From Thermoanaerobaculia bacterium (GTDB taxonomy: Bacteria > Acidobacteriota > Thermoanaerobaculia > Gp7-AA8): a DNA stretch of 39,852 bases. Positions 18,404-39,852 of the stretch are shown piece after piece. Location of the stretch: the NCBI GenBank assembly GCA_017883235.1, contig JADGNY010000057.1, positions 1-39,852 on the forward strand. Reading direction: 5' to 3'. Each line of letters starts with the position of its first letter. Within the stretch, counting starts at the first letter, position 1. The translations under genes were made by a program, and so were the position numbers. The notes under the pieces are model-generated. The model was not told where the DNA came from, searched no databases, and saw only the letters and a list, made by a program, of their open reading frames with translations.

Positions 18404-18719
18404 AAAACGTCCTCTGGTTCTCGAGTATGTGGCGCCTTCGGATGTAGTTGGGGCTGCGCTCGACGGCAACCTTCTCGACGAGATCCACCTCTCGGCCGAC
18501 GATCGTCTTGAGCTCATCCTGCATCCTGAAAAGGTCGAATAGCGTCCATCGCGCCGCGTCTTCGAATGTCACCAGAACATCGACATCGCTGTCTTCACGG
18601 AAGTCGCCGGGGCGCAACACCGACCCGAAAAGACTCAGCTCGGTGATCCGCCACTTGCGGCAGTAGGCCTCGATCGCCTTACGGTCGAGATCGAGTGCGA
18701 TCGGCGCCTCGACGCTCAT
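18393..18719 (-). CDS. mntA: MntA-family nucleotidyltransferase antitoxin
   Basis: Minimal nucleotidyltransferase that AMPylates HepT. 108 residues. The catalytic block is LFGSVLRPGDFREDSDVDV (30-48), with G32-S33 and D45-x-D47. Spacing between GS and DxD is 11 residues rather than the usual 10, so the loop is one residue longer. A third acidic residue is expected in the block VGREVDLVEK. The ATG overlaps the stop of an upstream relic (ATGA at 18716-18719), so it was once the second gene of an operon. No promoter is obvious within the relic. Confidence 0.92.
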   Translation of the reverse strand: MSVEAPIALDLDRKAIEAYCRKWRITELSLFGSVLRPGDFREDSDVDVLVTFEDAARWTLFDLFRMQDELKTIVGREVDLVEKVAVERSPNYIRRRHILENQRTFYVA

Positions 18720-18874
18720 GCCAGCTCCTTCACCACGAGCAGCTCGTTGCCTCGGTCATCGATCACTTTGACGGCAATCTGTTTGCGTTCGTTCATCTGC
18801 TTGTGGCGCTTGTGCCCCTCAGCGTCCAGGCAACATCCTACCGGATCATCCCATGAGTCAGGGATCTCGCCGTC
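18716..18874 (-). pseudogene. C-terminal relic of a lost gene upstream of mntA
   Basis: A 52-codon frame, open from a stop at 18875-18877, reads DGEIPDSWDDPVGCC, then KQMNERKQIAVKVIDDRGNE and LLVVKELA, and stops in an ATGA overlap with mntA. The sequence looks like the end of a real, folded protein and not chance, but there is no start codon except an internal ATG at 18796 and the upstream part is replaced by repeat sequence. The precise overlap shows that it was the operon's first gene. The parent might be a restriction or methylation enzyme, given the neighbourhood; I cannot confirm it. Confidence 0.6.
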
Positions 18875-18944
18875 TCATCGGATCGCTGGGCCGATACGGC
18901 TGAAGCCGTGTTACGAGTTCGATGCAAAGAGCGTCCCCCTGACC

Positions 18945-19154
18945 GGAGAGCAGGCGTCCCGCCTGCTCCCGACGCGGCGTCTCGCCCGGCGGTGGTCCCG
19001 CCGCAAGCAGGGTTGAACCTCAAAAACGCGGATGGATAGGCCGCCGCTCTACCCAACAGTTGCGCTCGACTCCGTCCCCACCGCCGGGCGAGACCCTTCG
19101 ACTCCGCTCAGGGCAGGCTGCCGCGGCGGGAGCAGGCGCGGACGCCCGCTCTCC
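18945..19154. repeat. 210-bp palindromic element, family A long variant, with nested insert
   Basis: Starts GGAGAGCAGGCGTCCCGCCT and ends CGCCCGCTCTCC. Internal blocks CGGCGTCTCGCCCGGCGGTG and CCCACCGCCGGGCGAGAC match 5038-5208. A short CCTTCGACTCCGCTCAGGG palindrome (19095-19115) breaks the right arm. The 18875-19346 gap holds this and a second fragment (19185-19250, CGTCCTCGCCCGACGGTGG); no gene is visible in it. Confidence 0.8.
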
Positions 19155-19346
19155 ACTTGTGACCCGGTCCGTGATGCTCTTCGCCCAGCCTGGCGGCTGC
19201 TCCGGTGGGCGTCCTCGCCCGACGGTGGTTTCGGGATTCCGGACAGACGAAGGTGAGCCACGCGGCATGGAAGGTTGCCAGGCGACAACGTCGCCAGCGC
19301 GTGAGGATGCCGGTCAATCCACACCACCAATTCGGGAGCATTCACC

Positions 19347-19516
19347 GACTCCCAGAGTCCATCAACTGCCTCGCGGAGTGTGTTAACTGCCTCCAGGAGT
19401 GTGTTAACGGACTCCGGGAGTGTATTAACTGACTCCGGGAGTGTATTAACTGACTCCGGGAGTGTGTTAACTGACTCCGGGAGTGTATTAACTGACTCCG
19501 AGACATCCCGTTAACT
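19347..19516. repeat. Tandem array 1, 21-bp period, about 8 units
   Basis: Seven 21-bp units from 19347 plus a last degenerate one (19494-19516). The consensus is GACTCCGGGAGT followed by GTATTAACT. Each unit has the palindrome ACTCCGGGAGT and a GTTAAC or ATTAAC. The first units vary (GACTCCCAGAGT, GCCTCGCGGAGT, GCCTCCAGGAGT). The period is a multiple of three, so stop-free frames appear on both strands, but these look like by-products. Array 3 at 28643 has the same GACTCC[C/G]GGAGT core. Confidence 0.92.
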
Positions 19517-19606
19517 GGCCAAAGCCTCTTCGGTAGATCCATGGCTCTATTCGACAGCCGATTCGACCCTCACGCGCGCCGAAACGCGTCCGAAGAGCCC
19601 CCAAAC

Positions 19607-20323
19607 TCAGTAATTCCACGTCTCCTGCCGGACCGGCAGCCGATTCAGCTTTTCCCGATACGACTGCCACCTCGGCATGTAACGGTCCATCAAGGCCATG
19701 AAGCGGGCGTTGTGGGTTGCCTCGAGTAAGTGCACCAGTTCGTGGACGACGATGTATTCGAGACACTCCGGAGGTTTCTTCGCCAGTTCGGTGTTCAGGC
19801 GAATGGTGCGCGTTTCGTGGTTGCAACTCCCCCATTTGGTCTTCATGCGCTGCACGAAAAAGCGCTCCGCCCTCACGCCGATCAGCATCTCCCATCGTTC
19901 CAGCAGCGGCGGAACGGCGACCTTGATCTGCGCGCGATACCACTCGTCGATCAGCGCTGCCCTCTTCTTCTCCGACGTTCCTGGACGCGCCTTGAGAAGC
20001 ATTCTGCGAGGTTTCAGCGACACCGAAGGCGGCTCATCGGCTTCGCGAACCGTCAGCAGATAGCGCTTGCCCCAGACGTAGTGGCTCTCCCGGTCGATGT
20101 ATTCGCGAGGGGTTTCGCGCTCCTGCTCCCGCAGCTTCCGCTGCTGCTTCTTGATCCATTCGAGCCTGGAGATGGCGTAGACCCTGATCGTATCGATGCT
20201 CATCCGCCTAGGCGCGGAAATGCGGACGCTGCCGGACGGCGGGTAGACGCTGAGATGAACGTTCTTGATGTCCTTGAGGACAACGCTCACCGCGATTCCG
20301 CCGAGGTTGAATCGCGTCTCCAT
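19607..20323 (-). CDS. WSS1/YgjP-like (DUF45) zinc metallopeptidase, R-M operon
   Basis: 238-residue zinc peptidase-like protein. HELVH at 194-198 gives H194, E195 and H198, and the third ligand would be H204 in EATHNARF; KTKWGSC (161-167) is the other family hallmark. Proteins of this YgjP/SprT-like group commonly accompany hsdR genes, but their part in restriction is unclear. The start METRFNL at 20323 overlaps the hsdR stop by one nucleotide (TGATG), so it is translated by coupling; readings that start further upstream overlap hsdR. It is the last gene of the cassette. Array 1 begins about 90 bp after its end. Confidence 0.88.
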   Translation of the reverse strand: METRFNLGGIAVSVVLKDIKNVHLSVYPPSGSVRISAPRRMSIDTIRVYAISRLEWIKKQQRKLREQERETPREYIDRESHYVWGKRYLLTVREADEPPSVSLKPRRMLLKARPGTSEKKRAALIDEWYRAQIKVAVPPLLERWEMLIGVRAERFFVQRMKTKWGSCNHETRTIRLNTELAKKPPECLEYIVVHELVHLLEATHNARFMALMDRYMPRWQSYREKLNRLPVRQETWNY

Positions 20324-23300
20324 CAGTATTCGTTCTGCGCTCTGATGATCAGGAAGATCCGCTCCACGTCCGTGGCATTGCCAAGAATGTCGAACAGAGC
20401 CGATTTGATCACGTTCTCGCGCGCCTGGTTCCCGCGCCACCCGTCCAGGCGGACACGCTTCACCTCGGCATCGATCGCCAGCGCCAGCTCCAGCGGAGTA
20501 TCTTCGGCGTCGCTGTCATCGATCGGCAGATCCGCCACGAGTTGCGACCGCTCGGAGAGAAGCTCATCCCGCTTCAGATTGTTGTAAATGGCACGCAGCC
20601 CGGGACTCTTCTTCAGTTGTTCGGGCGTGTCATCCGCCAGACCCGCCTCAACCTTCCTGGCAATATCGGCGACCTTCTTCAGGTAGTCCTCATATTCGAT
20701 CGCCTTCGCCTTGCGGGCGGCGATGATCTCGTCCAGCAACTTCGACATCGTCTCGTAGAAAGCGGGGTCGGTGAGCTGCTCCTTGATGATCTTGCTGCGG
20801 ACGTTGTTCTCGATCGTTTCCGCGATGGCGTCGCGGTTGCCCTTCAGACCTCCGAGCTGCGAGTTGATGGCGTTGGCGATCCCGGTGTTCACGATCAGAT
20901 CGAGCAGGCCCATCCCGTCGAACGGTGAGATCTTCCTCGGCTCGTCGGCCTCGATGTACGTGTCGATGAGGTGGCGCATGTCGGCCTCGTACGCCTTCAG
21001 GTCGAGGCTCTCACCGCTGGCTTTGCGGATGATCTCGCGGACGTCGAGGTAGTGCTTGAGCTGCGCCTTGATCCGCGCGATGTCCGCCGGTCCGTAGCCG
21101 GCCGGCTCCAGCTCATCGCTGATGTTCGCGTAGGCACGCACGAGCGCCACCGTGGCCTTGTAGAGCGCGGAGCGCTGCGGTTCCCGCTCTTCGAGATCCG
21201 ACTCGATCTCGGTGTTGCCGCAGAAGTAGTGGATGTGCTCCAGCTCCCCTTTCGGCGGCTCGACCGGCTCGCACAGAAGAGCGAGTACTTCGATGGCATC
21301 GTCGAGCCGCTCCCTCCCCTTCGTCCCCCGATCCTGCAGCATCACCTCAGGGTCGGCGCCGCCGGCACTGTGATCGAGTTCCGAGGTATAGACAGCGATG
21401 GCGTTTTCGACCTTCTTGAACAGGTCCTTGTAGTCGACGATGTAGCCGAAGTCTTTGTCCTCACCGTCCAGCCGGTTGGTGCGGCAGATGGCCTGGAAGA
21501 GCCCGTGATCCTGCATCGACTTGTCGATGTAGAGATACGTGCAGGGCGGCGCGTCGAAACCGGTCAGCAGCTTGTCGACCACGACCAGCACCTTCATGTT
21601 CGCCGGTTCGTGCTTGAACAGATCCTTGGCCCGCTCCTCGTACGCCTCGGTCCTGGACATGTTCGGAAGGGGTTCGACGTCCCGCAACAACTCCGTGTAG
21701 GTGTTGTAGATGAACTGCTTGTCCGTCTCCGTGTTCGCCCCGGTCTCCTCCAGCGAGACATGCTTTGCCTGCGGGTCGTACGACGTCACCACCGCGCACT
21801 GTCCCTTGAACCGCGATTTCTGGAAGAGCACGAAGTACTTACAGGCCTCGTAAATGCTCGACGCCACGAGGATGGCGTTGCCACGCTCGCTGGAGAGCCG
21901 CGGCTTCACGGCAAAATCCAGGATGATGTCGTTGACCACCCGGTCCATGCGCGAGCGCGAGCTGAGCACGTGCTGCATCGTGCCCCACTTCGTCTTCAGC
22001 TCGTCCTTCTGCCAGTCGTTGAGCCCCTTGGTCTTGGCCTCGAACCAGGCGTCGATCTTCTCCTGCGAGCCGAGGTGCTGATCGATGTCGCGCGCTTCGT
22101 AGATCAGATCGAGGACGACGCCATCCGCCACTCCCTCGCTGAACTTGTAGGTGTGGATGTAGCCGCCGAACACTTCCAGGCTGGTCTTGGCGTCGTCTTT
22201 GAGCAGCGGAGTGCCGGTGAATCCGATGAAGATGGCGTTCGGCATCCGCGCCTTCATCACCCGGTTCAGCCTGCCGCTCTGGGTACGATGGCATTCATCG
22301 ACGAAGACGAACAACTCCCCGACCGTCTCGCTGGGACTGGCCTCCAGCTCCTTGATGAACTGATCGAACTCCTCGTCTGTCTTCTTTACGCCCTTTGGCC
22401 CGAACTTGTGAACGAGGGAGCAGAGCAGTCGGGGATTGGCCTGACCGAGCTGTCGCATCAGAGTGCGGCCGCTATTGGCGCGACTGATCGAGACATCCGA
22501 CCCCATAAACACACCCTCGATCTGTTTATCGAGCTCGTCGCGGTCGGTGATGATGGCCACCCGGGCGTTCGCGTTGTCCTCCAAAATCCACTTGGCCAGC
22601 ATCACCATGACGATGCTCTTCCCGCTCCCCTGCGTATGCCAGATGATGCCGCCCTTTTTCTCGCGGACGTGCGCCTGCGCGGCCTTGATACCGAGGTACT
22701 GGTGCACCCGAGGCAGCTTCTTGGTACCGCTGTCGAAGAGCACGAAATCGTGGATCAGCTCGAGCAGCCGGTGCTTCTCGCACATCTTCAAGAGGTACTT
22801 GTCCAGCTTGAAACGGCTGTTGTCCGATTCGTCCTCTTTCCACTTGAGGAAGTACTTCTCCTCCGTCCCGATCGAACCGTACTTCAGTCCTTCGGAATCG
22901 TTGCCTGCGAAGATGAGCTGCACCGTACTGAAGAACCACTGGTGAAACAGCGAAGTCTGATTCGACAGACACTGCCGGATGCCGTCGCCGATCGATTTGC
23001 GGCTGCTCTTCAGCTCCAGCATGCCGAGGGCGATGCCGTTGACGTAGAGCACGAGATCCGGCCGCCGGTCGTGTTTGCCCCGGAGCGTCACCTCCTCGGC
23101 GATGGCGAAGTCGTTCTGCAACGGGTTCTCCCAGTCGATGAGCGAAACCGTCTCCGTCGGCTTTCCGGGCTCGGTCTTCACCGGCACGCCGTAACGCAGC
23201 AGGCTGTAGACCGCTTTGTTGTTCTCGTACAGATTGCGGCTGTGATTGTTCGCCTCGGTGAAAAGACGATGAAGAACGACCGCGATCTGCGCGCCGGAGC

Positions 23301-23460
23301 AGCGACGCCTGATGAGCCACTTCGATAGCAGATCCTGCTCAATGTTGCTGTTGGCGGGGCGGTCGGTCCAGTCGCCGAGGTAGCGGTAACCCAGCTCGTC
23401 GCGGAAAAGGGCGATGACGCGGTTCTGCGTGGCGCGCTCCGGTTGGCCGACGGTGTTCAT
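20323..23460 (-). CDS. hsdR: Type I restriction endonuclease subunit R
   Basis: Motor and nuclease subunit of a type I R-M complex (R2M2S); it translocates unmethylated DNA and cuts at random sites. 1045 residues. The N-terminal nuclease is a PD-(D/E)xK fold with D135 and E149-x-K151 (RRPDLVLYVNG ... GMLELK). The helicase part has Walker A GSGKS (278-282), the DECH box (388-391) and motif III GFTGTPLL; motif VI is near LFQAICRTNR. The coiled C-terminal region binds the methylase. All motifs are intact, so it should be active. It follows the orphan antitoxin by 31 nt and is coupled to the peptidase gene. Confidence 0.97.
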   Translation of the reverse strand: MNTVGQPERATQNRVIALFRDELGYRYLGDWTDRPANSNIEQDLLSKWLIRRRCSGAQIAVVLHRLFTEANNHSRNLYENNKAVYSLLRYGVPVKTEPGKPTETVSLIDWENPLQNDFAIAEEVTLRGKHDRRPDLVLYVNGIALGMLELKSSRKSIGDGIRQCLSNQTSLFHQWFFSTVQLIFAGNDSEGLKYGSIGTEEKYFLKWKEDESDNSRFKLDKYLLKMCEKHRLLELIHDFVLFDSGTKKLPRVHQYLGIKAAQAHVREKKGGIIWHTQGSGKSIVMVMLAKWILEDNANARVAIITDRDELDKQIEGVFMGSDVSISRANSGRTLMRQLGQANPRLLCSLVHKFGPKGVKKTDEEFDQFIKELEASPSETVGELFVFVDECHRTQSGRLNRVMKARMPNAIFIGFTGTPLLKDDAKTSLEVFGGYIHTYKFSEGVADGVVLDLIYEARDIDQHLGSQEKIDAWFEAKTKGLNDWQKDELKTKWGTMQHVLSSRSRMDRVVNDIILDFAVKPRLSSERGNAILVASSIYEACKYFVLFQKSRFKGQCAVVTSYDPQAKHVSLEETGANTETDKQFIYNTYTELLRDVEPLPNMSRTEAYEERAKDLFKHEPANMKVLVVVDKLLTGFDAPPCTYLYIDKSMQDHGLFQAICRTNRLDGEDKDFGYIVDYKDLFKKVENAIAVYTSELDHSAGGADPEVMLQDRGTKGRERLDDAIEVLALLCEPVEPPKGELEHIHYFCGNTEIESDLEEREPQRSALYKATVALVRAYANISDELEPAGYGPADIARIKAQLKHYLDVREIIRKASGESLDLKAYEADMRHLIDTYIEADEPRKISPFDGMGLLDLIVNTGIANAINSQLGGLKGNRDAIAETIENNVRSKIIKEQLTDPAFYETMSKLLDEIIAARKAKAIEYEDYLKKVADIARKVEAGLADDTPEQLKKSPGLRAIYNNLKRDELLSERSQLVADLPIDDSDAEDTPLELALAIDAEVKRVRLDGWRGNQARENVIKSALFDILGNATDVERIFLIIRAQNEY

Positions 23461-23491
23461 TCAGCCGCGTCCCGGTGTCGTGGCAACCGCA

Positions 23492-23734
23492 TTATGCCTC
23501 GCACGCGACGATGCTCTTGAGGAGGCGGCGCTCGTCAGCCGCGGACCATGAGCCGATGAAGCGATCAAGAGCGTCACCCACGGACGCGGAAGACTGGTCC
23601 GCCTCATTGAGTCCCGCGCCGCGTCGAAGAAGGAGCAGAGCGGCCTCGTTCAGTGACACGTTCTCACGGCGGGCAAGCTCCCTGAGCCGGCGTTCCAGTT
23701 CTTTGTCGAAGCCTCGCAGCGAAAGATGAGTCAT
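23492..23734 (-). CDS. Ribbon-helix-helix antitoxin-like protein, no toxin partner
   Basis: 80 residues from MTHLSLRGFDKELERRL (start chosen at 23734, where the RHH strand begins; a longer form from 23776 is possible). The first 45 residues form a ribbon-helix-helix DNA-binding motif (LSLRGFDKELERRLRELARR, then NVSLNEAALLLLRRGAGL), and the tail (ALDRFIGSWSAADERRLLKS) resembles VapB or FitA-type antitoxins that wrap a PIN toxin. No PIN gene is next to it: hsdR follows 31 nt later. It may be a relic antitoxin or a regulator of the hsd operon. Confidence 0.78.
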   Translation of the reverse strand: MTHLSLRGFDKELERRLRELARRENVSLNEAALLLLRRGAGLNEADQSSASVGDALDRFIGSWSAADERRLLKSIVACEA

Positions 23735-23815
23735 GGTGAGAACCTCGCGATGTGCGTCATCAACGACGCACGCCACTCATACTACGCACCACCGCAGCCG
23801 AGGGTCAAACCGGGT

Positions 23816-23902
23816 TCACGCGGAGACGCGGAGACGCGGAGGGAGAAGCTCATGCGGCCAGCCAATCCGCGCCTCTCTCCGCGTCTCCGCGCCTCCGCGT
23901 GA
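23816..23902. repeat. Palindromic element, CGCGGAGACGCGGAG family G
   Basis: TCACGCGGAGACGCGGAG on the left (23816-23845) faces CTCCGCGTCTCCGCGCCTCC on the right (up to 23902), around a centre with AGCTCATGCGGCCAGCC. It fills most of the 180-bp gap between hsdS and the antitoxin. A differently sequenced but similar element, built on CGCGAAG and CTTCGCG, lies at 36845-36915. Confidence 0.85.
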
Positions 23903-23913
23903 CCAACGTCCCC

Positions 23914-25149
23914 TCATACCAGCCGGATCCGCCCGGTGAGCAGCTCCTGCATCATCCCCTGCTTGATCGCGCGCGCTTTGGCGAGCTTCGCCTCCAGCGC
24001 TGTGATTTCGGTGTCCATGTCTGCGAGGATGGCGGCGATGGCGGTTTGTTCTCCCCGTGTTGGCACCGGCAACATGATTTTCCCGATATTGGTCTTGCTG
24101 ATTCCCGATACTTTGGTTCCAACAGAAAAGAAACGAAACTGAGACTTCACCGCGCGTGTTTGAAAGCAATACCGACGATACGGATTCACCAGTTCGTTGG
24201 TCTTGCTCTTGGCGACGATGGTGTGCAGACCGGAGATGAAAGGGATTCCCTCCGGGTTGATGACGACGAGGTGCTTACTTGTGCCCTCGTCATCTTCAGA
24301 AGCGTCGACAAAGACGATGTCACCATCGTGCAGCATCGAGACAGACGAAACCCTCTTTAGAGGAACGTTCAGCTTAGGAAGTTCGTGTAACTCGCTCCGA
24401 ACATCCACGTACGACTTCGTCGACAAGTGGATGTCGCCGTAGTGGAGGTAGCAGTGGCCGTCTGACGAGAGTTGATCGCGAGATGCGGTGAAGCCGCCGC
24501 TGAAGTTGAATAGCTCGCCCAGGGATTTCGTCTCCCATTCTCCGTTGAAGCCGGGCAGGCGCTTCTTGCCGGTGAGCAATTCCTGCATGCCGCCTTGTTT
24601 GAGCTGACGCTTCTTGGCGAGGAGTTGCTCCTGGAATTCGATGAGGGCATCCGCATCGCTCAACGCGTCGCTGATTGCCTCTTGTTCTCCTAGTGAAGGT
24701 AACGGAATCTCGAGAGCAGCAAGCGTCGGAATCCGAAGGTTGCTTACCGTCGAACCAATACCCCCTTGAATCCGAATGACGTTTTGAACGGTTGATGACT
24801 GGAGGGCATACAGCAGATATCTCGGTGCAACCTTTTGGCGATTTGGACGCAGCAAAACCATACGCTGCCCTAGACAGCATCGGAGGCTGCGCGGGATCAT
24901 ACAGACCTGACCCATCGGAGCTTCTCGCGTTATCACGACATCCTCGTAAAGGGGCAGTGCACGTTGAATCCGCTGTGAAAAGTTGCGCTCATCGGTGAAG
25001 CTAGGTTCCGAAAGGTCGAGCCGACCATTTCTAATATTCTGGTTCCGAAGAACAAGAACACCCCTATCTGTCCAAGTGGGGGTCGAATGCGAGCAATCGT
25101 GGATCTCCGAGCAGAGTTCTCGGAGAGTCATGACGCCCTCAAAGCGCAT
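23914..25149 (-). CDS. hsdS: Type I restriction-modification specificity subunit S
   Basis: Determines the DNA sequence recognised by the type I complex. 411 residues; two target-recognition domains separated by conserved helices. The first central conserved region is near 180-215 (PLPSLGEQEAISDALSDADA, then LIEFQEQLLAKKRQLKQGGM) and the matching C-terminal block is near 372-405 (VPTRGEQTAIAAILADMDTE, then AKLAKARAIKQGMMQELLTG). ELLTGK and ELLTGR end the two blocks, giving the half-repeat symmetry of HsdS. The start at 25149 overlaps the hsdM stop (TGATG). The recognition sequence cannot be predicted. Confidence 0.95.
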   Translation of the reverse strand: MRFEGVMTLRELCSEIHDCSHSTPTWTDRGVLVLRNQNIRNGRLDLSEPSFTDERNFSQRIQRALPLYEDVVITREAPMGQVCMIPRSLRCCLGQRMVLLRPNRQKVAPRYLLYALQSSTVQNVIRIQGGIGSTVSNLRIPTLAALEIPLPSLGEQEAISDALSDADALIEFQEQLLAKKRQLKQGGMQELLTGKKRLPGFNGEWETKSLGELFNFSGGFTASRDQLSSDGHCYLHYGDIHLSTKSYVDVRSELHELPKLNVPLKRVSSVSMLHDGDIVFVDASEDDEGTSKHLVVINPEGIPFISGLHTIVAKSKTNELVNPYRRYCFQTRAVKSQFRFFSVGTKVSGISKTNIGKIMLPVPTRGEQTAIAAILADMDTEITALEAKLAKARAIKQGMMQELLTGRIRLV

Positions 25150-27563
25150 CACGGACAAGCAAATCCCATCCTCTCCAGATGGCGATTCACTCTCGCTTCG
25201 AGTTCGATCACCCGATCGACCATCCGCGGCAGCGGCACTTGGTACCGCTCGCCCAGTTCTTTCACCCGGTGCGTGATCTCGTGACTGATGCGGTCCATCT
25301 CTCCGTGAATGACAGCGTCGAGCGCGGCCAGCCACTTATCGTCGACGACCATAGCCTTGATCTCGTCTTCATTGAGCTTCGGATACTTCGCATGAGCCTG
25401 CGTGTCGAGCGCAGCGTCGGCATCCTTGATGCGCCTCTTGAGATCGGCCTCTGTGCCGCCCAGCGTCATCCACGAGGTCAGGACCACCGCTTCGTCCTTC
25501 AACTCCTTGTCACCTTTAATCTCCTTCAGCCGGTCGTTGACGCTGACCTTGTTGACCTTATCGAGCGAGGAGAATGCCCCCTCCTCCCCGCCCTGCTCCT
25601 CTTCCAGCTCGGCAAGGCGGGCGGTGACTCCTTCGAGCTCGACAGACAACGCATCGATGGCCCCTTGCTCACTAGCGAAGTATCGCGCGACGATCAACGG
25701 CTTGGGGATGAGGTCGCAGGCCCACCCTCGGTCGATCTCTTTGCCGGGTTTGCCGTCCTTCCCCTTCCGGACCTCGATCACACGATGCGCCTCTGCCTTC
25801 CAGCCGTCGGCGGCGATCAGGTAGATGTCGTCCTGCATCGTCTCGTCCCAGTAGTCCATCAGGTGCTGATAGACGTCGTAGGCATCGATGAGCGGCCTGT
25901 CCGCGTAGTGCCCGAGGAGTCCCTCGGCGAGCGTGGTGATGACCTCTTTCGGATTGCAACCTGCCTTCAGCGCCTTGAGCGACGCGCTCTGCTTCTGCCG
26001 CCAAGCGTCGAAGTGAGCGTTCATACTACCGATGAACGTGGCAAACTCCGGGTGCTCGTAGATCGTCGATTTGATTGCGGCCTTCTCCACCGCCAGATCG
26101 AGATAGCCCGGCCGGCGCTCCTTGAACAGCGCGTGCCGCAGTTGCGGGCAAACGGTCCAATACCGTTCGAGGGCATCGACGTCGGCGACCGGAATGCCGC
26201 CGCGCAGATGGCCATCGATGTCCTGCACATCTTCGGGTGTCTGGCTGTCGATGTAGCGTGGCAGGTTGAGGTTGAACTCGTTCTTCTCGATCTCCTCGAA
26301 CGACACCATCCGCGAATACCGGGCGACCTCGAGCCGGCGGTTGAAGACGTCGACGATCTTGTGGATGTCCATGCTGCGTAGCCGGTTCTTCGGACCGTCC
26401 TTCATGAAGCCGGCCGAGGCGTCGATCATGAAGATGCCGCGGCGGGCCTGCGCGTCTTCCTTGTCGACCACCACGATGCAGGCCGGGATGCCGGTGCCGT
26501 AGAAGAGGTTCGCCGGCAGACCGATGATCCCCTTGATGTATCCCCTGCGCACTAGATTGCGCCGGATGTCCCCCTCGGCGTTGCCGCGGAACAGCACGCC
26601 GTGCGGCAGGATGCACGCCCCTTTGCCGGTGCTCTTGAGCGAACGGATGATGTGCAACAGGTAGGCGTAGTCGCCCTGCTTGCCGGGCGGCGTGCCGAAG
26701 GTCTTGAAGCGTTCCCAGGGATCGTTCTGCGGGTCGACGCCGTTGCTCCAGCGCTTGTCGGAGAAGGGAGGATTGGCGACGACATAGTCGAAGGTCTTGA
26801 GCGTGTCGCCGTCCATGAACTTCGGATCAGAGAGCGTGTTCCCCTGCCGGATGTCCGCCTCAGCCTGGTCGTGCAGGATCATGTTCATGCGCGCCAGGCC
26901 GCTCGTGGCCGAGTCTTTTTCCTGACCGTAGATCGTCACCTTCGACGGCGCCGCATCGGCCACCTTCAGGAGAAGCGAGCCGGAGCCGCACGTCGGATCG
27001 TAGACGGTCGTCGACGGAGTCGTAATCGCCTTCCCGATGCCGATGACCTGGGCCATGATCCGGCTGACCTCGGCCGGCGTGTAGAACTGCCCTTTGCTCT
27101 TGCCGCTCTCGGTGGCGAAATGCCGCATCAGGTATTCGTAGGCATCGCCGAGGATGTCGTCGCCGTCAGCGCGGTTCTTCGAGAAATCGAGGGCCTTGTT
27201 CTCGAAAATGCCGATCAGGTTGCTGAGGCGCTCGACCATTTCCTTCCCGGTACCGAGCTTGTTGGCGTCGTTGAAGTCCGGCATCTCGCCCAGCTTGTTC
27301 GCGGCGATCAGTGGCTGAAGGATCTTTTTGTTGATCTGGTCGCCGATGTCCGATTTGCCCTTGAGGGCGACCATGTCTTTGAATCTCGCCCCCTCGGGGA
27401 CGACGATTGCCGCGTACTGCTGGCCGGCGTACTTGTCGCTGACGTACTTGATGAAAAGGAGTACGAGAACGTAGTCCTTGTACTGGCTGGCATCCATCCC
27501 GCCGCGCAGCTCGTCGCAGCTCTGCCAGAGAGAGCTATACAGCTCGGATTTCTTCAGTGCCAT
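25149..27563 (-). CDS. hsdM: Type I restriction-modification methyltransferase subunit M
   Basis: N6-adenine methyltransferase that modifies the host recognition sites. 804 residues, long for HsdM (about 500 is common). The N-terminal helical domain (residues 1-150), the SAM motif DPTCGSGSLLL (189-199) and the catalytic NPPF (264-267) are typical. The extra 300 or so residues (from about 500) form a helical region rich in charged residues, with a coiled-coil-like stretch (TARLAELEEEQGGEEGA) and a conserved Trp-rich segment (YWDETMQDDIYLI); this larger form is seen in a subset of HsdM proteins. First gene of the operon; a 16-bp inverted repeat lies 78-127 bp before its ATG. Confidence 0.96.
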   Translation of the reverse strand: MALKKSELYSSLWQSCDELRGGMDASQYKDYVLVLLFIKYVSDKYAGQQYAAIVVPEGARFKDMVALKGKSDIGDQINKKILQPLIAANKLGEMPDFNDANKLGTGKEMVERLSNLIGIFENKALDFSKNRADGDDILGDAYEYLMRHFATESGKSKGQFYTPAEVSRIMAQVIGIGKAITTPSTTVYDPTCGSGSLLLKVADAAPSKVTIYGQEKDSATSGLARMNMILHDQAEADIRQGNTLSDPKFMDGDTLKTFDYVVANPPFSDKRWSNGVDPQNDPWERFKTFGTPPGKQGDYAYLLHIIRSLKSTGKGACILPHGVLFRGNAEGDIRRNLVRRGYIKGIIGLPANLFYGTGIPACIVVVDKEDAQARRGIFMIDASAGFMKDGPKNRLRSMDIHKIVDVFNRRLEVARYSRMVSFEEIEKNEFNLNLPRYIDSQTPEDVQDIDGHLRGGIPVADVDALERYWTVCPQLRHALFKERRPGYLDLAVEKAAIKSTIYEHPEFATFIGSMNAHFDAWRQKQSASLKALKAGCNPKEVITTLAEGLLGHYADRPLIDAYDVYQHLMDYWDETMQDDIYLIAADGWKAEAHRVIEVRKGKDGKPGKEIDRGWACDLIPKPLIVARYFASEQGAIDALSVELEGVTARLAELEEEQGGEEGAFSSLDKVNKVSVNDRLKEIKGDKELKDEAVVLTSWMTLGGTEADLKRRIKDADAALDTQAHAKYPKLNEDEIKAMVVDDKWLAALDAVIHGEMDRISHEITHRVKELGERYQVPLPRMVDRVIELEARVNRHLERMGFACP

Positions 27564-27640
27564 GGGGAAAGGGTGAGACCTCCTGTGATTGACCGAGGCT
27601 AAACTACCAGAAAGCGCCCGGCGCGCGATTGCGGGGGACG

Positions 27641-27690
27641 CATCTGCGTCATCTGCCGGCGGAAAACATCATCCGCAGATGACGCAGATG
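27641..27690. repeat. Perfect 16-bp inverted repeat upstream of hsdM
   Basis: CATCTGCGTCATCTGC (27641-27656) and GCAGATGACGCAGATG (27675-27690) are exact complements with an 18-bp loop (CGGCGGAAAACATCATCC). It is a tenth palindrome type in the window and lies between array 2 and hsdM, where a promoter would be expected. Confidence 0.85.
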
Positions 27691-27719
27691 GAACCCAGAT
27701 GCGACTCTCCACGTCGGCG

Positions 27720-28165
27720 GGTGCATCGTTTCGATCCTCGCGTAATTCGTCTTGACCCTCGCGCGCTTCGTTTTGGTCCTCGCGCGCTTCGTTTTGACCC
27801 TCGCGCGCTTCGTTTTGACCCTCGCGTGCTTCGTTTCGACCCTCGCGCGCTTCGTTTTGACCCTCGCGCGTGCTTCGTTTCGACCCTCGCGTGCTTCGTT
27901 TTGACCCTCGCGCGCTTCGTTTTGACCCTTCGCGTGCTTCGTTTTGACCCTCGCGTGCTTCGTTTCGACCCTCGCGCGTGCTTCATTTCGATGCTCGCGC
28001 GCTTCGTTTTGACCCTCGCGCGCTTCGTTTCGACCCTCGCGTGCTTCGTTCTGATGCTCGCGTGCTTCGTTTTGACCCTCGCGAGCTTCATTTCGATGCT
28101 CGGGTGCTTCGTTTTGACCCTCGGGTGCTTCACTTTGATGCTCGCGTGGTCAGTTGTTGACCCTC
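27720..28165. repeat. Tandem array 2, 21-bp period, about 21 units
   Basis: Units of about 21 bp with consensus GCGCTTCGTTTTGACCCTCG plus one C. I count about 21 from 27720, with variants such as GTGCTTCGTTTCGACC and GAGCTTCATTTCGATG. Two units are preceded by an extra GC and one has an extra T, shifting the frame, yet both strands stay stop-free. It runs from about 155 bp upstream of hsdM to near the start of the next gene's 3' end and is the longest of the three arrays. Confidence 0.93.
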
Positions 28166-28185
28166 GGCGGCGCGTTGCGCAGCGG

Positions 28186-28605
28186 CTACGCGTCGATCGC
28201 GTCTTCCTCGCCGCCGAGGACTTCCTCGAGCGGCACCGCGCGGTGGTAGCGGCGGATTAACTCGTCCCAGGCGGCGAGGTAGTGGTCGCGGGGGACGCGG
28301 AAGCAGCGTGGGAGGGGGCCGTGGGGGGAGTCGCCTTCGAGGATGAAGACGTCGGGGCCGCAGGCGATGATGACCATGCGCCAGGCCTCGTCGGCGTCTT
28401 CGTATGGCTCCTCGTCGTCGCCGAGGGGGATATCGTCGTGGGTGAAGTGGCGGAGATCGCGGTCGGCGTGGTCCCAGGCGGGAAAGCCGGCAAGGTGGCC
28501 GCGCGAGCGGCTCATCATCCGGATGTGCAGTCCTCCCTCGCTCTCCTCGGCGAGAGTCAGGGAAAAGTCGGCGATTCGCGGTGCGTCGTCGAGGTTGTAA
28601 TGCAC
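28186..28605 (-). CDS. Conserved-looking protein of unknown function
   Basis: 139 residues from a GTG at 28605, preceded by a purine-rich GGGGGAGG that could be the Shine-Dalgarno. The protein is soluble and acidic (DDIPLGDDEEPYEDADEAWRM, C-terminal EEVLGGEEDAIDA), with a middle part MVIIACGPDVFILEGDSPHG and a later HYLAAWDELIRRYHRAVP. No family recognised. It lies between arrays 2 and 3 and has its 3' end within 20 bp of array 2. Codon use looks like that of a normal gene. Confidence 0.65.
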   Translation of the reverse strand: MHYNLDDAPRIADFSLTLAEESEGGLHIRMMSRSRGHLAGFPAWDHADRDLRHFTHDDIPLGDDEEPYEDADEAWRMVIIACGPDVFILEGDSPHGPLPRCFRVPRDHYLAAWDELIRRYHRAVPLEEVLGGEEDAIDA

Positions 28606-28642
28606 GTGGGCCTCCCCCTGGTGAGCTCGGAGTTTACCAATG

Positions 28643-28889
28643 GACTCGTGGAGTCCACGATTGGACTCCCGGAGTCCACGATCAGACTCCCGGAGTCCAC
28701 GATTGGACTCCCGGAGTCAACGATCAGACTCCCGGAGTCAACGATCAGACTCCCGGAGTCAACGATCAGACTCCCGGAGTCAACGATCAGACTCCCGGGG
28801 TCAACGATCAGACTCCCGGAGTCAACGATCAGACTCCCGGGGTCAACGATCAGACTCCCGGAGTCAACGATCAGACTCCCGGGGTCCGC
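28643..28889. repeat. Tandem array 3, 21-bp period, 12 units
   Basis: Twelve units from 28643, the last partial (from 28874). The consensus is GACTCCCGGAGT followed by CAACGATCA. Variants are GACTCGTGGAGT (unit 1), CACGATTG tails in early units, and GGGGT in units 8, 10 and 12. The GACTCC[C/G]GGAGT core is shared with array 1; the 9-bp tail differs. In one frame it encodes a heptapeptide (PESTIRL), but no gene start supports coding. Confidence 0.93.
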
Positions 28890-28978
28890 CGCGACTTACA
28901 AGTTTTGGCCGTTCCCGTTCGTTCCATGGCCTAAATCCGTCACTCGCGCCGGCGAGCGTGTCGAATCAGCGCATTTTT

Positions 28979-29081
28979 CACACTCTCACTGGAATCGTCG
29001 ACACCCGTTATTCGTCGGGCTCTCGACGGGTAACAGGGTGCCGACGGGTAACAGGGTGCCGACGATTTAAGTGAGACTGTG
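28979..29081. repeat. Imperfect inverted repeat with inner direct repeat
   Basis: CACACTCTCACT (28979-28990) and AGTGAGACTGTG (29070-29081) pair at 11 of 12 positions. Between them GACGGGTAACAGGGTGCC occurs twice in tandem (29025-29042 and 29043-29060). The remaining sequence to 29173 contains no gene; it ends with GCCGGCCGTGCCGGC, seen also near 9131. Confidence 0.6.
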
Positions 29082-29173
29082 AGAACTGCCTCCCCTGGGA
29101 GTCTGCGCCGTAGAAACGTTCTTGCCGCACTGTCGGCGGAGCCTTGGGCAACCAACGCCGCCGGCCGTGCCGG

Positions 29174-30476: not shown

Positions 30477-30555
30477 AAGGCAGAAAGCAGAAGGCAGAAA
30501 GCAGAAGTGCTTCGCTCAACATCACTTCTGCTTTCTGCTTTCTGCTTTCTGACCT
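30477..30555. repeat. Purine-rich palindrome, AGAAGGCAG family (paralogue gap)
   Basis: Third member of the family at 1557 and 2987. AAGGCAGAAAGCAGAAGGCA on the left pairs with CTTCTGCTTTCTGC units on the right around a TGCTTCGCTCAACATCA loop. It separates the paralogous genes. Confidence 0.85.
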
Positions 30556-39513: not shown

Positions 39514-39518
39514 GGCAC

Positions 39519-39852
39519 GGAGAGCAGGCATCCGCGCCTGCTCCCGGCGGGCGTCTCGCCCGACGGTGGGGACGAAGGCAAACGTAACTGTTGGGCAAGA
39601 ACGCCGGCGCCCCCATTCGCGCTTCGGGTTCAACGGCGCGGAGAGCAGGCATCCTGCCTGCTCCCGGCGTGGCGTCTCGCCCGACGGTGGGGACGAACGC
39701 GAACGTAAATGTCGGGCAAAAACGACGGTGCCCCGATTCGCGTTTTCAAGTTCGACACTGCTGTTGGCGCGCGGTGCAAGAACGCGGATGGGCACAGGCC
39801 GCCGTTGTTGGCCAGACATTTACGTTCTCCTTCGTCCCCCACCGTCGGGCGA
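39519..39852. repeat. Cluster of family A long elements, tandem and inverted
   Basis: After the amt stop two direct copies follow (39519 to about 39635 and 39637 to about 39760), each with GGAGAGCAGGCATCC, TCTCGCCCGACGGTGGGGAC and an AACGTAA(A)T block. A third, inverted copy (from about 39780) has AACGCGGATGGGC, ACATTTACGTTCTCCTTCG and CCCACCGTCGGGCGA, and is cut by the window end. The arms and ACATTTACGTT centre match 5038-5208. No gene is visible in these 339 bp. Confidence 0.85.

Follow-up and report, generated by a model that had tools for sequence, protein, structure and literature searches.

Minisatellites in bacteria are usually regarded as noise or as typing markers. Direct repeats that lie about two helical turns apart, with their sites on one side of the DNA, are familiar from the iterons of plasmids. 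The closest known system to the arrays described here is the BrickBuilt minisatellite-MITE of Porphyromonas gingivalis. According to the parts of its description consulted (PMC4596501), BrickBuilt is a dispersed intergenic MITE present in 19 copies, with an interior of 1 to 22.8 spacer-less tandem repeats of 23 nt that are conserved at only part of their positions. This interior is flanked by a 'leader' and a 'tail' with small inverted-repeat ends, and not every copy has both of these flanks. Tandem repeats of prokaryotes have also been surveyed as satellites (Subirana and Messeguer 2019, PMC6749651); the sections of that survey consulted name no class locked to 21 bp, and '21 bp' occurs 0 times in its main text. 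Among the titles, abstract openings and selected texts searched, we found no description of a 21-bp-locked class of arrays.

Here, we examine a 39,852-bp stretch of a Thermoanaerobaculia genome (the window), which is contig C81 of an assembly of 6.92 Mb in 246 contigs (G000). A first-pass annotation of the window had reported that two tandem arrays, 9 kb apart, share a 12-bp palindromic core, GACTCC[C/G]GGAGT, and had read this as a binding site selected as a core, with a tail that drifts and is homogenised separately in each array.

Results

Array 3 (28643..28886, forward strand; TRF 28643-28886) consists of 12 units that keep an exact 21-bp register from 28643, with the interior consensus GACTCCCGGAGTCAACGATCA and the dyad CTC-N3-GAG in every unit. 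Its first three units carry CCACGATTG or CCACGATCA tails, its second half forms a 42-bp higher-order repeat, its last unit is a terminal variant, and GGGGT replaces GGAGT in three units. Array 1 (19347..19500, forward strand; TRF 19364-19500) has 7 units in 21-bp register from 19347, and its interior unit, GACTCCGGGAGTGTATTAACT, has the same dyad as array 3 and a different tail. The tails of the interior units of arrays 1 and 3 are those reported before, GTATTAACT and CAACGATCA; array 1 additionally contains GTGTTAACT/GTGTTAACG tails and GCCTC..GGAGT cores. Between the two lies array 2 (27721..28166, forward strand), with about 21 units of 21-23 bp and the consensus GTGCTTCGTTTTGACCCTCGC, which is unrelated to arrays 1 and 3 in sequence and equal to them in period. 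Array 3 lies in a spacer of about 565 bp (28606..29173, assigned to neither strand), and a 139-codon ORF with no Pfam match (28186..28605, reverse strand) starts about 38 bp from it. In two genomes of the same genus, G001 and G002, this gene lies a few bases after its neighbour, with no array there. The surroundings of array 3 showed no sigma-70-like promoter or terminator, and a tRNA was the only match in an Rfam scan of the window.

Arrays 1 and 2 stand at the borders of a type I restriction-modification island (HsdM, HsdS, HsdR) that also holds a gene for a YgjP-like metallopeptidase (window ~18700-28200); this region, at ~18.7-28.2 kb, is missing from the corresponding place in G002. Other repeats in the window include a 121-bp GC-rich unit repeated nearly twice (39514-39742) and arrays of AAGGCAG-type heptamers, which form inverted pairs in gene spacers (1557-1588 with 1608-1638, and 30477-30507 with 30526-30551) and occur at many loci. 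Heptamer arrays are the other common repeat class of the genome; among arrays of any period with at least 3 copies, they were 20 of the 42 in the first random sample.

The core is far more abundant than expected by chance. Allowing up to 2 mismatches, GACTCC[C/G]GGAGT occurs 40 times in the window, where 10.79 ± 4.23 matches were expected, and 0 of 100 shuffles reached 40. Genome-wide, the exact core occurs 26 times on the forward and 27 times on the reverse strand (the reversed control pattern has 0 on each), and three CTC-N3-GAG motifs at 21-bp spacing, with at most 1 mismatch, have 282 matches against 2 for the reversed control. It is confirmed that arrays 1 and 3 share a near-palindromic core and differ in their tails. 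Elsewhere, the triple pattern was matched in 69 of 100 genomes, mostly at control level; G000 (282 vs 2) and G002 (24 vs 10) stood out, and a few others were slightly above their control. A pattern of two cores (up to 3 mismatches) was found in 3 of 60 genomes, namely G000 and two with single weak matches. Among named genomes, the sole contig match was a repeat of Halorubrum that looks like coding sequence, and it was rejected as an instance of the same element. There, the two-core pattern (L054, 3100-3200) lies in apparent coding sequence for an Asp-Ser-Gly-rich stretch and is probably convergent.

To compare positions within the unit, units were aligned inside each array with a wrap-around aligner, and columns were classed as arms (the CTC/GAG columns of the dyad CTC-N3-GAG), 3-bp centre, outer core or tail. 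Because it is made inside arrays, this core-versus-tail test is not circular, unlike a comparison between arrays that were chosen by their core. In the 14 arrays collected first, the arms diverged in 11 of 1032 cells (1.1%), the centre in 80 of 511 (15.7%), the outer core positions in 34 of 685 (5.0%) and the tail in 74 of 1344 (5.5%), with p = 1e-9 for arms against tail. Taken whole, the 13-bp core varied within arrays like the tail (Fisher p = 0.94), and on this ground the 12-bp core was rejected as the conserved unit. The reported preservation of the core thus holds for part of it only: CTC and GAG are constrained, whereas the 3 bp between them are the most variable part of the unit. Nor is the tail simply drifting, since one subfamily keeps GTTAAC.

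The comparison of core with tail over further arrays, which the first-pass annotation had proposed, was made on 24 arrays in the genome (the first 14 and 10 more), each variant being scored once per array. It gave 16 events over the 144 arm columns, as against 33 for the 96 outer, 47 for the 72 centre and 57 for the 192 tail columns, so that CTC/GAG vary least and the centre most, with the tail between. Since the subfamilies are related, a test at the level of these clusters is the safe one: the arms were quieter than the tail in nine of nine subfamilies, and 0 of 20,000 column permutations over subfamilies were as low as the arm value (centre, p = 1e-4). An array of the congener (G002, L149) showed the same order, with 3/72 for arms, 14/96 for tail, 11/48 for outer positions and 9/36 for centre. 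In six arrays found through GTTAAC, a group chosen for its conserved tail, arms and tail did not differ significantly (7/36 vs 13/48 events, p = 0.49), and in one array (L140) CTT replaces one CTC. CTC-N3-GAG resists change within and between arrays; the centre, the outer core and usually the tail turn over. Two three-letter motifs held fixed in a changing unit suggest a protein-binding site. The earlier reading of a selected binding site is a fair one on this column pattern, with the correction that the conserved part is CTC-N3-GAG and not the core; no binding protein was identified for the arrays.

These differences could also have arisen neutrally, through slippage or unequal exchange alone, with the core reflecting common ancestry and the contrasts between columns reflecting mutation bias and chance fixation, an explanation that we consider rather unlikely. 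CpG is common in the centre columns, and 26 of the 47 centre events occurred there, as mutation bias would have it. However, the other 21 were not at CpG, and therefore deamination is not the whole cause; the quiet arms of all nine subfamilies also speak against neutrality.

The gene of 139 codons next to array 3 has a paralogue on contig C245, 91% identical and in a like arrangement. In both cassettes the gene stands between arrays of two families, the same two in each, and the terminal units and flanks are also much alike. Between the two loci, flanking DNA shows 89-94% identity, and 6 of the 21 positions of the array unit have changed. These fall in the centre or the tail; the 10 arm and outer positions have 0 changes (p = 0.0085). 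Since the unit has changed despite matching flanks, separate homogenisation is seen directly, and the proposal that tails are homogenised array by array is borne out, here for tail and centre alike. Such rapid turnover of a paralogous cassette is in keeping with neutral minisatellites, as is the result for the one syntenic block compared, in which no array position was shared by the congeners.

Common sequences mark the ends of the arrays of this family, and we call them end A (outward CGCCGCATCTACCGGAATTGGTGG), end B (sequence CGCCGCGACTTACCAGTTTTGGCCG) and end C (sequence AGTCCGTGAACCAGTCGCCGGA). For the stretches of G000 that were fetched, the close matches lie 0-23 bp from an array, with one exception, an end B 156 bp from an array and beside two more repeat units; the few matches with 4 to 6 mismatches elsewhere in these stretches are at the level of the reversed control. 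Over the whole genome, end A with up to 1 mismatch has 10 sites, 8 of which are next to a CTC/GAG repeat (an array in seven cases and only two units in the eighth, on C110); the two sites without an array are in C244 and C45, the latter of which looks coding. End B, with up to 3 mismatches, was at an array in 3 of 3 cases. In the window, end B lies directly outside array 3 (28887..28911, forward strand, CGCCGCGACTTACAAGTTTTGGCCG), and it is also found at array ends in C245, C24 and, in diverged form, C105. The other boundary of array 3 (28633..28642, forward strand, TTTACCAATG) is common to the C245 paralogue and bears only a weak likeness to end A; array 3 is without a clear end A, and a variant of that end (19325..19336, forward strand, CACCAATTCGGG) adjoins array 1. 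Ends A and B, aligned by eye, are only rough inverted copies of each other. C90, C110 and C244 have an outer flank in common. The assembly is fragmented, and several arrays are at contig ends. Judged by their sequence, the arrays lie in dispersed, MITE-like intergenic elements with conserved ends. In the two-unit case (L187, on C110, 1500-1600), end A and no more than two 21-bp units lie directly ahead of an ORF that resembles ZapA; this is possibly an unexpanded copy of the element.

Within the elements, edge units are divergent and array interiors homogeneous, a pattern that slippage and unequal exchange would produce by themselves. The ends raise another possibility, that the tandem units are bound by the transposase that moves a non-autonomous element and that the constraint on CTC-N3-GAG serves mobility rather than a cellular role. 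Conserved ends on dispersed copies, the outer flank shared by three contigs and the position of the element between two genes that nearly abut in congeners are all consistent with transposition. Nevertheless, no transposase was identified in a search that was not by family, no target-site duplication was seen at the single near-empty site (the array 3 locus compared with congeners), and an element can hold up to 28 sites. To our knowledge, known transposon ends carry far fewer sites than this. Transposase sites are a live alternative to the binding-protein reading, although we think them improbable.

The palindrome might instead act through structure, each unit forming a small hairpin or cruciform (stem GACTC/GAGTC, with the 3 nt of the loop free), either as RNA or in extruded DNA; transcript stability is one thing that this might affect. 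The most variable position is then the loop, and array 3 does fold better than column-permuted controls on both strands (z of -4.3 and -3.1), as do 15 of 61 arrays at p <= 0.05. Folding was computed on the first 12 units of each array for 61 of the 68 arrays, 7 with fewer than 3 complete units being left out. However, no compensating double changes were found in the three inner pairs of the dyad, and the outer pair (columns 2 and 12) departs from Watson-Crick pairing in 12 of the 24 arrays. Because the inner pairs show no compensation and the outer pairs are often unpaired, it is the sequence that is kept and not the stem; a stem maintained by compensation, as in REP hairpins, was not found. 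The hairpin signal is missing from about half of the 21-bp arrays, including array 2, and neither strand is favoured. Mean z was equal on both strands, which gives no sign of RNA wobble and removes hairpins of one RNA strand from consideration. A structural role therefore appears quite improbable to us.

A palindrome could not be upheld as a feature of all 21-bp arrays, being detected in 23 of 68 by shuffling (p <= 0.05) and in 27 of 61 by folding on either strand. Dyads are enriched overall in representatives of the 23 sequence clusters described below (81 vs 55.6 ± 6.3), and no single half-site stands out as common to all of them. Since palindromes are enriched yet far from universal, it is the period and not the dyad that defines the 21-bp arrays. 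At one locus of another family (L092, 2382-2640), long near-perfect palindromes of the CTCTTGCCTTGGCAAGAG type are spaced at 21-22 bp; their variants seem changed on both arms, making this a candidate for stem selection.

Several further readings of the arrays were rejected. Codon-phase bias reached p <= 0.05 in 0 of 55 arrays, and units of 20 and 22 bp are mixed in, so the repeats are not protein-coding. An origin as 3 x 7 bp from the heptamer satellite is not reflected in identity at lag 7 (z = -0.36 over 58 arrays). Units abut and tails recur within an array, unlike in a CRISPR array. Phased A-tract curvature was likewise rejected, A/T power at the 10.5-bp harmonic being depleted rather than raised (z of -3.8 for 56 arrays and -1.8 for 21 representatives). 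The depletion, seen in the consensuses of the 21-bp units, is as if intrinsic curvature were avoided.

For the period itself, stretches were fetched regardless of arrays, 40 from G000 (693 kb) and 30 from the congener G002 (564 kb), and arrays of at least 80 bp, at least 3 copies and a period of at least 9 were counted, smaller ones being dropped. The period was a multiple of 20.2-22.2 bp in 26 of 30 arrays of G000 and in 17 of 17 of G002 (43 of 47 in total); about 22% would qualify if periods were spread evenly from 9 to 100. About 21 bp is two turns of the B-DNA helix. Array density was about 37 per Mb in G000 and 30 per Mb in G002, close to 1% of the sampled DNA. Over 710 units, from arrays preselected near ~21 bp with others excluded, the mean was 21.14 bp, and mixed periods of 41, 43, 62, 64, 85 and 86 give units of 20 to 22 bp, a mixture that fits coding sequence poorly. 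A lenient single-linkage rule sorts 66 arrays from G000, G002 and G009 into 23 clusters, and the period is therefore common to unrelated sequences, which a neutral process alone leaves unexplained. Among further genomes, G001 (same genus, 215 kb) had 0 of 1 such arrays fitting the period, and, when the limit was relaxed to 60 bp, each of the 4 arrays in G009 (same family, 88 kb) had a period of 21 or 43 and 13 other, lightly sampled genomes had 10 arrays in total, 3 of them with a period of 21 or 42. With genes called by a simple hexamer model of our own making, 54 of 68 arrays were intergenic, and most of the others lay inside low-scoring ORFs created by the repeat itself. The neighbouring genes are tandem for 24 arrays, divergent for 10 and convergent for 10, and the arrays thus follow neither promoters nor terminators.

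Discussion

The explanation to which we give about even credence is that these are minisatellite elements homogenised by slippage, in which the dyad is kept by a dimeric DNA-binding protein that would sit on one face of the helix. Arrays 1 and 3 would each be one copy of a MITE-like intergenic element that is dispersed and non-coding. Its minisatellite interior may expand and homogenise in each copy through slippage or unequal exchange, while the ends, as the sequences indicate, remain recognisable. A sequence-specific and probably dimeric protein contacting the two CTC half-sites of each unit would be the most likely cause of the constraint on the arms, and spacing by two turns would stack these sites on one face of the helix and could permit cooperative binding, as in plasmid iterons. 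The recurrence of one period across unrelated families may point to a constraint or generator common to the lineage.

A broader version, which we regard as doubtful, is that all long intergenic tandem arrays of the lineage, of any sequence, owe their origin or their maintenance to a common protein or process that measures two helical turns. The site of each family would then recur once per 21 bp on one face, with few bases read, here CTC-N3-GAG. If so, about 1% of the genome would belong to a class of chromosomal arrays that is free in sequence and locked in period. Most long arrays of two genomes have one period, equal to two turns of B-DNA, in unrelated sequences, and this points to either a physical rule, namely helical phasing, or a dedicated factor. 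The column footprint provides a concrete bait, CTC-N3-GAG at 21 bp, with a built-in control in the contrast of arms with centre and tail.

The arrays share features with several known systems. They resemble plasmid iterons in the helical phasing of direct repeats (the 710 preselected units, mean 21.14 bp) and differ from them in being dispersed over the chromosome and in comprising many sequence families; no replication initiator was found among the 8 window proteins scanned. With REP and REPIN sequences, as described in the portions consulted (PMC3116915, PMC3733652), they have in common that they are dispersed, intergenic and palindromic; unlike these, they form long head-to-tail arrays, and the stem is without compensation. 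They are like prokaryotic satellites, in the sections of that survey consulted (PMC6749651), in being scattered intergenic tandem repeats in families, many of them unique. Periods that are multiples of three are usually explained there as coding repeats, an explanation that fails for the present arrays. To BrickBuilt, as far as the consulted text goes (PMC4596501), the likeness holds on two counts, since the present arrays are intergenic tandem repeats without spacers and their dispersed copies share flanks. They differ from it in sequence, in a dyad with a hypervariable centre and in terminal inverted repeats that are only rough; and whereas BrickBuilt has one repeat family, here many unrelated families share one period of about 21 bp.
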